64,000 nucleotides of DNA from a virus, in the IMG/VR virus record IMGVR_UViG_3300025645_000060, positions 1 through 64,000 of that record, one strand, 5' to 3'. Position 1 is the first letter of the stretch, and each line of letters opens with the position of its first letter. The notes beneath the pieces were generated by a model. The model saw only the letters and a program-made list of their open reading frames with translations. It did not search any database and was not told the DNA's origin. This document shows, one piece after another, positions 49,890-54,726 of the stretch. The position numbers and the translations under genes are program-made.

Positions 49890-50357
49890 TCAATCGTTAT
49901 TATAATGCTTTAAATAAGGCTGTTCTTTTTTGGTACATTTCTTTTTCCATCGTTTGTCTAAAAAGATTATATATCTAAATTGTCTTAGTGTTTCTTTTGT
50001 GGCTTTCTCTTTAAAACCACGCCTTTCCAACTCAGCCTTTTTATTTCGGTTGTTATTCGTTATTAAACTATTATGGTATGTTTTCCCCTCAAAGTTCCAG
50101 AAAGTACTTGTATGCTCACCAAAATAACTAAAATTAGCCGCTTGGTAAACAATACCTAAACCTCCACACCGTTCATCTGCAAAACTTTGAATCCACTTAA
50201 CAGTCTTGTATTTACCTTTAATGTATTTTATGCTATAACTTATGGCTTTACTTTCTGTATTTTTAACAGCCTTATCATCAAACCACATTCTATTAAGTTC
50301 CTTGTATTGGTTTAGTTTCGTTCCTGTAACTAAAGAGCCTCCGCTTTGTGGGTTCAT
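49890..50357 (-). CDS. Cassette ORF: Mom-like DNA modification protein, N-terminus missing (155 aa)
   Basis: The sequence ELNRMWFDDKAVKNTESKAI, IQSFADERCGGLGIVYQAAN and RQFRYIIFLDKRWKKKC, EQPYLKHY follows the C-terminal two thirds of phage Mom-type proteins, acyltransferase-fold enzymes that modify adenine and protect DNA from restriction. Full-length members carry about 60 more N-terminal residues that bind cofactor; here the frame begins at about 'GK..MNPQ' and an in-frame TGA lies seven codons before the ATG. So it is probably truncated, or a separate C-terminal piece. It sits in the cassette array before attC-like site 7. Confidence 0.65.
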   Translation of the reverse strand: MNPQSGGSLVTGTKLNQYKELNRMWFDDKAVKNTESKAISYSIKYIKGKYKTVKWIQSFADERCGGLGIVYQAANFSYFGEHTSTFWNFEGKTYHNSLITNNNRNKKAELERRGFKEKATKETLRQFRYIIFLDKRWKKKCTKKEQPYLKHYNND

Positions 50358-51085: not shown

Positions 51086-51313
51086 TTAAGCAACATCTGC
51101 ACTTTTATAGTCAGAAGGCTCAAATCCTGCGTTCCAAAAAAATAGTGTACCTCTTTTTAGTTTCTTTTTTGTGTCTTGATGCTCACATTCTACTTTCCTT
51201 TTTTCAATCGGTTTTTCGCACCTCTCACCATCTGAATTGATGAAGTAAACCAAGTCGCCTTCTTTTACTTCTTTACCATTTGATAATTTTGTCTTTTTAA
51301 ATAATCCGAACAT
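51086..51313 (-). CDS. Cassette ORF: small protein, copy A (75 aa)
   Basis: Paralogue of the protein at 52270-52500. Shared parts: TKLSNGKEVKEGDLVYFINS and TKLFNGTEVKEGDKIAFINS, then SDGERCE and RGTLFFWN/KGTLFFWN. ATG at 51313 lies 12 bp beyond attC-like site 4. It looks like a small beta-barrel domain (SH3-like size). Function unknown. Confidence 0.66.
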   Translation of the reverse strand: MFGLFKKTKLSNGKEVKEGDLVYFINSDGERCEKPIEKRKVECEHQDTKKKLKRGTLFFWNAGFEPSDYKSADVA

Positions 51314-51324
51314 AATAAAACTGC

Positions 51325-51455
51325 GCACAACATTGTATATAAATCAGTGGCGTTGTACGTCTTTTTAACCACTTTTAGCTGTTTTATTTAGTTTAAGCGT
51401 GTTGGCAATCTATCAGCTATTAATCGCCACCGCTTCATATACTTAGCCGTTATCT
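51325..51455 (-). mobile_element. attC-like site 4 (long type)
   Basis: Ends GCACAAC and GTTATCT; arms GTATATAAATCAGTGGCG and CGCCACCGCTTCATATAC pair with unpaired bases between blocks; 131 bp with a long variable centre. The preceding ORF stops 7 bp away. Confidence 0.68.
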
Positions 51456-52269: not shown

Positions 52270-52500
52270 TTAAACAATAAACGCATTCTTGTAATCTGAA
52301 ATATTAAATCCAATATTCCAGAAAAACAAAGTTCCTTTTTTCAGCCTTTCACCAGTATCATTGTGTGTTGTCTTAAATTTCCTACATTGTATTAAACCTT
52401 CGCATCTTTCACCATCTGAGTTTATAAAAGCAATCTTATCGCCTTCTTTTACCTCAGTACCATTAAATAGTTTTGTTTTTCTTTGCTTAAATAAGTTCAT
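52270..52500 (-). CDS. Cassette ORF: small protein, copy B (76 aa)
   Basis: Paralogue of the ORF at 51086-51313 (about half the residues the same over the full length, including FINSDGERCE and GTLFFWN.GF..SDYK). ATG at 52500 is used; a frame from 52527 begins inside attC-like site 1. Between sites 1 and 2, thus a single-gene cassette. Confidence 0.68.
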   Translation of the reverse strand: MNLFKQRKTKLFNGTEVKEGDKIAFINSDGERCEGLIQCRKFKTTHNDTGERLKKGTLFFWNIGFNISDYKNAFIV

Positions 52501-52518
52501 AATCAACCAATTAACGGC

Positions 52519-52612
52519 ACACAACATTGTATATAGTTAATGCGCCAATGAAGTTGAGTGCTTAATTCAATCGTTTGTTGTAGGCGCACTAACCATATAC
52601 CTACCGTTGTAC
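52519..52612 (-). mobile_element. attC-like site 1 (long type)
   Basis: Plus-strand ends ACACAAC and GTTGTAC; arms GTATATAGTTAATGCGCC and GGCGCACTAACCATATAC complementary with small bulges. The ORF upstream stops 4 bp away. Best example in the window. Confidence 0.72.
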
Positions 52613-53318: not shown

Positions 53319-53555
53319 TTAAAAAGATAATATTACAAAATCTTTATGTAAACCATATTTTTCACAATTTTTTAATATATATTTAATTTTTACTTTTATT
53401 TTTTTATTTGTGTAAAATTCGTTTTTAATTTCATGTAAAGTAATATAATCTCCAATTTTATAATTTTTAGAATTTTTTCTTAATTCAAAATTTTTATTTC
53501 CGTTTTTTATTTCTTTAAAATATTTAGATAAAATATCAAGATCGTGGTTTTTCAT
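53319..53555 (-). CDS. DUF3850-like ASCH-fold protein (78 aa)
   Basis: MKNHDLDILSKYFKEIKNGN, KNFELRKNSKNYKIGDYITL and GLHKDFVILSF follow the DUF3850 pattern (L.I...YF..i..G.K.FElRkn...y.vGD...l.E). ASCH-like folds bind RNA or modified nucleotides. I use the ATG at 53555, 1 bp after the ABC-GNAT stop; a frame from 53606 overlaps it. Coupled to the ABC-GNAT gene. Confidence 0.78.
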   Translation of the reverse strand: MKNHDLDILSKYFKEIKNGNKNFELRKNSKNYKIGDYITLHEIKNEFYTNKKIKVKIKYILKNCEKYGLHKDFVILSF

Positions 53556-53556
53556 T

Positions 53557-54726
53557 TTAAAAAATTGATAATTGATTTTGAGCAATTTCTTTATAAGCAT
53601 CAGCATTAAAAGTAATTAAATTTGTATTTGTTTCATTTTTATCACCAATAAATTTGTAAGATTTAGATATTCTTGTTGAAGTTTTAAATGTACCTGTAGA
53701 AGCAATTTTTTTCGATTGCATCATTTCTGCTTTTTTTTCTCCGTTGGTTCCCGATGTGAATAACCAATTATTAGATCTTTCAAATGATTTCCACAAAGCT
53801 GGATTTGATGTTTTTATATAAATAGTTTTATTGTCGTTTTTATAAACTTGACCAAACCAATTTACAAATTTAAAACCAATACCCATTCCCTGAAAATCTG
53901 GCAAAACTACCACTCTAGAAATCCTATATCCGTTTTTTATATTACCATGAGGAAAAGGAAGAATAGCCATAAAAGCTATTGGTTTATCATTATACAAACT
54001 TACAAAATTTTTAGCTGCTTTATTTAAATTTTCAGTTAGATAGTGATGTTGCTTGAATATATCCCAAGTTTCATATCTACATCGAAATATCTGTAATTCA
54101 ATTTTTGGTTTTCCTTGCCGAAGATAGTCCGTCTTCTCTAGACGGCCTTTTAGTGGAGAATAAGTCCAATCAGGTTGCAACCATTCCATAATGTCAAAAT
54201 GACAAGAAGCAAGAATTATTTTTTTGTTATTTCGCCGAATATATTTTTGTAAAGCGTTAGACATAGCTTTAGCGACATCTCTATCTACTACGGATGTAAA
54301 TTCATCTATCAATATTATATCTCCATTTTTTGCTTTTCCTACTTTATATGCTAATGAAGCTCTATATTGTTCTCCGTTTGATAATAAATTAAATGGTCTT
54401 AACCATGTTGGAACAGAAGCCAAACCCATAGCAGATAATAAAAAAGTAGCTTCTTTTGGTTCTAACCAATCAAAATTAGATATTAATGGTTTTTGTTCAT
54501 CAAATTTATCAATATTCAAATTTCCAAATTCTTTCAATAAAGTTGTTTTCCCAGTACCAGACCCACCATATATAACTCCTATATTCCAATCAAAAGTTTT
54601 ACATTCAGAAAAATTTATAGGAATTTTTACAATTGTTTCTTTTTTGTTTTGAATATCAAAAGCTTCATATATGTATTCAGTATACTTATCATTTATTATT
54701 TTATTTCTTTTTTCAATGTATTTCAT
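53557..54726 (-). CDS. ABC-type ATPase fused to GNAT acetyltransferase-like domain (389 aa)
   Basis: ABC domain: Walker A GGSGTGKT (54-61), signature LLSNGEQ (114-120), Walker B DIILIDEF (135-142) and H-switch ILASCH (171-176). Then a GNAT-like domain with HHYLTENLNKAAKNFVSLYN and the acyl-CoA-binding loop VVVLPDFQGMGIG (272-284). This fusion corresponds to the known 'ABC ATPase fused to predicted acetyltransferase' class (I recall COG2401). In phages such genes stand near terminases and are suspected to modify DNA or protein; no function is proven. No membrane domain, so it is not a transporter. Confidence 0.85.
   Translation of the reverse strand: MKYIEKRNKIINDKYTEYIYEAFDIQNKKETIVKIPINFSECKTFDWNIGVIYGGSGTGKTTLLKEFGNLNIDKFDEQKPLISNFDWLEPKEATFLLSAMGLASVPTWLRPFNLLSNGEQYRASLAYKVGKAKNGDIILIDEFTSVVDRDVAKAMSNALQKYIRRNNKKIILASCHFDIMEWLQPDWTYSPLKGRLEKTDYLRQGKPKIELQIFRCRYETWDIFKQHHYLTENLNKAAKNFVSLYNDKPIAFMAILPFPHGNIKNGYRISRVVVLPDFQGMGIGFKFVNWFGQVYKNDNKTIYIKTSNPALWKSFERSNNWLFTSGTNGEKKAEMMQSKKIASTGTFKTSTRISKSYKFIGDKNETNTNLITFNADAYKEIAQNQLSIF

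Follow-up and report, generated by a model that had tools for sequence, protein, structure and literature searches.

The window, a 64,000-nucleotide stretch of a 68,946-base IMG/VR virus record, encodes an ABC-ATPase/GNAT fusion of 389 aa (53557..54726, minus strand) in an operon with a DUF3850 protein. On balance we favour the reading that the fusion is a Mom-like, ATP-dependent DNA base acyltransferase, accompanied by what is probably a modified-base reader. The main evidence that the enzyme would act on DNA as Mom does lies in the contexts that the two share, namely a right-end position beside Com in Mu-like phages and a ParB-like partner gene. If the reading is true, phages would have a further base modification, made by a route that ATP drives, and this would bear on their evasion of restriction.

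Domains and motifs of the ABC-GNAT fusion

The PHROGs profile phrog_11143, whose function is listed as unknown, covers the fusion over its full length (aa 3-366, E 7e-142), and this match together with the intact ATPase and CoA motifs places the protein in the phrog_11143/ABC-GNAT group. In Pfam searches the N-terminal half gave generic P-loop matches only, and the GNAT family PF00583 matched aa 218-312 (E 4e-7), in agreement with the GNAT-like domain that the initial annotation had placed behind the ABC part. An AlphaFold2 model calculated with 46 sequences contains two folded domains (pLDDT 81.5, pTM 0.53), and a Foldseek search of the PDB returned the tRNA-modifying enzyme TmcA (2zpa, E 3e-8) as the best match, followed by ABC nucleotide-binding domains and GNATs. 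The ABC-type ATPase part spans approximately aa 1-200 (54127..54726, minus strand), and the GNAT part approximately aa 208-362 (53641..54105, minus strand).

Alignment of the fusion with its relatives located Walker A (GGSGTGKT, aa 54-61; 54544..54567), the ABC signature (LSNGE, aa 115-119; 54370..54384) and Walker B with the catalytic Asp-141 and Glu-142 (aa 137-142; 54301..54318), all on the minus strand. Walker A (G54, S56, G57, G59, K60), LSNGE115-119, D141-E142, SVVD145-148 and H176 are invariant in 46 relatives, so that the earlier statement that all ABC motifs are intact holds for Walker A and B, the signature, the D-loop and the H-loop. It needs amending in that the signature reads LSNGE(Q), departing from LSGGQ, and in that the single position inspected for the Q-loop showed no conserved glutamine. 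On the GNAT side, the same 46 relatives share invariant H228-Y229, within an HHYL motif (aa 227-230; 54037..54048, minus strand), R271, and the glycines G280 and G284 of a canonical acetyl-CoA loop (QGMGIG, aa 279-284; 53875..53892, minus strand).

Pfam detected no membrane domain in the fusion, nor in the adjoining DUF3850, terminase small-subunit and HNH genes, bearing out the claim that a transport domain is missing, and an ABC transporter was rejected for want of a membrane-domain family in the gene or a membrane partner. A known defence system was likewise rejected, PADLOC returning partial ATPase matches only. No other 1.4 kb of the window is as poor in GC as the fusion and the DUF3850 gene together (25.6% versus 36.0 ± 3.4%), and this AT-richness suggests acquired cargo. 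Two further window genes (51086-51328 and 52270-52527, minus strand), with short ORFs lying between them, encode similar small proteins of 80 and 85 aa with NGxEVKEGD and KRGTLFFWN stretches in common, and are probably paralogues.

Distribution of ABC-GNAT homologues

Homologues of the fusion were detected by tblastn in 61 phage records, including Nonlabens phage P12024S (70% identity), Tenacibaculum phage pT24 (51%), T4-like Vibrio and Aeromonas phages, and actinophages. The ABC and GNAT halves are separate, adjacent genes in lactococcal and streptococcal phages, where the first carries the label 'putative ABC-transporter' or 'ABC iron siderophore transporter' and the second is listed as a hypothetical or GNAT protein. 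The siderophore label on the ABC half, found in streptococcal and Oenococcus phages (L083:5866-6543, L098:3734-4411), receives no support from homology. Samples from IMG/VR comprised 80 close relatives of the window fusion and 80 loci from a branch retrieved with a homologue from a transposable phage of Pseudomonas. One genome scan supplied 80 bacterial or archaeal loci with ABC-GNAT, at least some of them in prophages, and a scan using the Leptospira homologue yielded one near-copy and nothing more.

A GNAT coupled with an ABC ATPase was predicted earlier, by Iyer and Aravind, to install an uncharacterised acyl mark on a base in DNA, with pT24 as a named case (PMC7824862 and its ref. 136). 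Since the domain pair had already been predicted as an acylation system in pT24, whose homologue is 51% identical, the idea behind the fusion is not new. The literature searched contained no characterised ABC+GNAT member or known product, and no description of the DUF3850 and nuclease-like associations or of the Com-adjacent placement reported below.

ABC-GNAT in the com-mom slot of Mu-like phages

A zinc-ribbon ORF lies directly upstream of ABC-GNAT in 68 of 80 loci of the mostly Mu-like, Pseudomonas-seeded branch, a count based on a CxxC...CxxC pattern and one Pfam-confirmed representative, which proved to be Com (PF10122, E 2e-15). No such ORF directly precedes the gene in any window-like locus. 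Among chromosomal or prophage homologues, Com precedes ABC-GNAT in 6 of 64. For contigs of this branch of at least 30 kb, ABC-GNAT falls within 2.5 kb of a contig end in 30 of 45, and a Mu-type transposase scored above cut-off in 20 of 45. Phage Mu carries com and mom within its last kilobase; in Pseudomonas aeruginosa phages, Mom occupies the right end of JD024, and in Komp_PAO1_1 ABC-GNAT follows the tail-fibre genes. The right-end, Com-adjacent position of ABC-GNAT in Mu-like relatives corresponds to the com-mom slot of Mu, which is not so in the window phage. Standing behind Com at the Mu-like right end, in the place that Mom takes in Mu, is strong context for a Mom-equivalent role.

The Mom profile matched none of these 45 contigs and none of 37 window-like contigs. 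The window itself serves as a positive control for these negatives, since the profile detects in it an N-terminally truncated Mom homologue (49890..50357, minus strand; PF25680 E 2.5e-46, profile positions 51-200 of 202; phrog_1384 E 2e-38). The N-terminal half of this remnant was not found in the 68.9-kb record, and a splitting intron was rejected on the basis that Rfam gave no group I or group II match. Loss of mom in a phage that carries ABC-GNAT is a possible explanation. The GNAT part of the fusion was rejected as a member of the Mom family (PF25680, phrog_1384), with no PF25680 match at E ≤ 1 and an hhalign probability of 0.6% (E 0.096); the non-significant hhalign alignment pairs HHYL with HYS of Mom. 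In another phage contig, a Mom-family gene (L219:2957-3571) was seen ~0.4 kb upstream of a DUF3850 gene.

ParB-like and other neighbours

ABC-GNAT has a ParB-like gene ahead of it in many lineages, among them Leptospira, Jace, Pmp13, MismyG and NHagos phages, as well as at 20 of 64 chromosomal loci, and in Psychrobacter phage Y8A a ParB-like gene precedes a Mom-family gene just before the terminase. ParB was absent from the window record, and neither Com nor a formyltransferase stands beside the window fusion.

In chromosomal relatives, a formyltransferase gene (PF00551) stands directly behind ABC-GNAT in 26 of 68 loci in place of DUF3850. Distant phages and prophages likewise carry formyltransferase-family genes (PF00551, phrog_9240) immediately after ABC-GNAT (L084:2312-2962, L089:5035-5508, L090:4981-5598), annotated as phosphoribosylglycinamide formyltransferase or tRNA-methyltransferase. 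The formyltransferase suggests that in other branches the product is sometimes altered further; literature searches on phrog_11143 and on GNATs with a formyltransferase returned nothing relevant. An aspartate decarboxylase gene (PF02261) stands directly behind ABC-GNAT at L093:4828-5253 and at one genome locus, and is a possible source of a beta-alanine group. A nucleoside 2-deoxyribosyltransferase gene was found upstream of an archaeal ABC-GNAT (L258:4615-5001), and such genes also occur near Mom in phages Liebe and PMBT69 (L373, L372).

A patchy DUF3850 partner

The DUF3850 gene of the window (53319..53555, minus strand; GC 14%) encodes a 78-aa ASCH/PUA-like protein (PF12961, E 1e-20), whose nearest solved structure is the ASCH-fold protein 3iuw (E 2e-15). 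Its ATG (53553-53555) is separated from the TAA of the fusion (53557-53559) by base 53556 alone, confirming both the 1-bp gap and the ASCH fold described initially.

The condition that the initial annotation set for its own refutation, a rare co-occurrence of the two genes, received a mixed answer. A DUF3850 gene lies downstream of the fusion in 18 of 80 close relatives, and in 17 of these it is a few bases from the fusion end or overlaps it, the remaining one (L032) being 203 bases away. A whole-contig scan of 37 relatives, biased in that four had been retrieved via DUF3850, found one DUF3850 gene in each of ten contigs, at positions fitting the ABC-GNAT neighbourhood, and none elsewhere. On a tree of 46 non-redundant relatives, which includes some sequences retrieved via DUF3850, a DUF3850-only label needs at least four changes and a label for family X alone (described below) at least five; the former count corresponds to at least four gains or losses of DUF3850. 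None of the Mu-like or chromosomal ABC-GNAT branches examined yielded a DUF3850 gene. In Streptococcus Javan523, MismyG and Oenococcus unk162, three Firmicutes phages, ASCH genes (PF04266) take its place behind ABC-GNAT, in what looks like independent recruitment. The pairing is real, patchy and non-obligatory.

This patchiness bears on a reading that we consider less likely than the favoured one and yet its most serious competitor, in which ABC-GNAT is a DNA modifier and DUF3850 is unrelated cargo, the slot being a hot spot for small AT-rich genes. The low GC of the gene fits such a reading, as does its absence from the Mu-like and chromosomal relatives examined; DUF3850 is moreover common, occurs in many other contexts, and showed no common neighbour away from ABC-GNAT. 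Against it, the slot is non-random: DUF3850 and family X are found there repeatedly, and where both are present either may come first; one lineage has DUF3850 joined to a nuclease-like domain, and the ASCH genes of the Firmicutes phages occupy the position behind ABC-GNAT.

Nuclease-like neighbours in relatives

Family X, a protein of ~150 aa without a significant Pfam or PHROG match, is encoded directly behind the fusion in many relatives (L024:3645-4118 and 20 other loci). It follows DUF3850 in L006, L012, L017, L018 and L020, and precedes it in L192, L193 and L196. A structure model of family X (pLDDT 85, pTM 0.83) weakly matched restriction enzymes in a Foldseek search of the PDB (HincII, E 0.015, probability 0.2), and matched VRR-NUC and PD-(D/E)XK proteins in BFVD with probabilities up to 1.0 but E ~5e-3 and TM 0.41-0.52. 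The motif D33-x14-D48-H-K50 is invariant at D33, D48 and K50, and family X is predicted from these weak structure matches to adopt a PD-(D/E)XK-like fold.

In a further set of loci (L033-L036, L231, L232 and L234; L033:3284-3961), DUF3850 is fused to a domain with the pattern D-x7-E-I-K-x16-Q-x3-Y, which has no profile match and which we take to be the motif order of a RecB-type nuclease. PDB profile searches with family X and with the DUF3850-fused domain of L033 returned nothing useful. In the window, the slot behind the fusion holds DUF3850 alone; no nuclease-like partner was found in the record, the search for family X having been run without a positive control.

The repeated presence of ASCH-type and nuclease-like partners is suggestive of a complete module for marking, reading and cutting. 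A more speculative proposal, which we hold to be rather unlikely, is that in phages related to that of the window a small PD-(D/E)XK-like nuclease makes up, with ABC-GNAT and DUF3850, a compact phage system that would mark self DNA with an acylated base and cut unmarked host or competitor DNA, with DUF3850 reading the mark; the window would then represent a reduced form lacking the nuclease.

Proposed mechanism and alternative substrates

In the favoured reading, of a Mom-like DNA base acyltransferase, ATP would let the ABC ATPase form a dimer on DNA, perhaps as a clamp, that offers a base, or a precursor nucleotide, to the GNAT domain for acylation from acyl-CoA. The resulting mark may shield phage DNA against host nucleases ahead of packaging. 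The PUA-like DUF3850 protein would have an accessory role, recognising the marked base and thereby tethering or regulating the enzyme; in relatives it might guide the nuclease encoded in the same slot. The domains, conserved motifs, operon, recurring partners and Com-adjacent placement of relatives are observations, and DNA as substrate, the acyl group, the coupling to ATP and the reading step are inferred. Points against this reading are the failure to detect a Mom relationship of the GNAT part, the top Foldseek match to TmcA, the lack of ParB in the window and of Com or a formyltransferase next to the fusion, and the fact that DUF3850 is missing from most close relatives and occurs in many other contexts.

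The initial annotation had left the substrate as DNA or tRNA. Of these, DNA is the more likely, as indicated by the Com slot, the ParB partners and the earlier prediction (PMC7824862); tRNA is less supported because no gene context points to it, though TmcA is the best single Foldseek match. That the fusion acylates RNA (tRNA or rRNA) much as the NTP-driven cytidine acetyltransferase TmcA does, with DUF3850 binding RNA, is improbable in our estimate. Besides the TmcA match, a weak GNAT_acetyltr_2 hit (E 0.049; 13.5 bits versus a cut-off of 24.6) and the frequent description of ASCH domains as RNA-binding (PMC12704722) speak for it; the partners, however, are on the DNA side (Com, ParB, HNH and terminase). 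Membership of TmcA itself was rejected despite the top fold match, GNAT_acetyltr_2 being below its cut-off and the TmcA helicase family, with its P-loop, being missing. Least probable of all is that the enzyme serves host takeover by acetylating proteins, in the way that Rac acts on RNA polymerase, a role often assigned to jumbo-phage GNATs (PMC7824862), which neither a nucleic-acid-type ABC ATPase nor the Com-adjacent position at the Mu end fits.

Comparison with known systems

The closest precedent is the set of predicted GNAT and ABC ATPase systems, which have the same domain pair and the same predicted role as the window fusion. The window operon differs in adding DUF3850, and the relatives in adding nuclease-like genes, while neither ParB nor Com stands beside the window fusion. 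TmcA, the tRNA(Met) cytidine acetyltransferase (2zpa), likewise joins a P-loop NTPase and a GNAT on one chain, but its P-loop belongs to the helicase class rather than the ABC class, its size and domain set are different, and its helicase part has no Pfam counterpart in the fusion.

PUA-type domains have been described as readers of modified bases and as fusions to nucleases (PMC7897488; PMC12839542). The PUA-type modification-dependent restriction enzymes, such as the EVE-HNH enzyme VcaM4I (PMC7897488), place a PUA-superfamily reader beside or fused to a nuclease, an arrangement seen in ABC-GNAT relatives and not in the window, where in the relatives DUF3850 accompanies family X or the domain with the RecB-like motif. 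Unlike in the VcaM4I type, the nuclease-like partners of ABC-GNAT relatives adjoin a modifying enzyme, and their nuclease role is a predicted one.

Mom of phage Mu is a GNAT-type enzyme like ABC-GNAT, shares with it the right-end slot behind Com in Mu-like phages and a ParB partner, and likewise has an H-Y motif close to where the GNAT part begins. It differs from the fusion in having neither an ATPase nor a canonical CoA loop, and the profile match between the two is non-significant.
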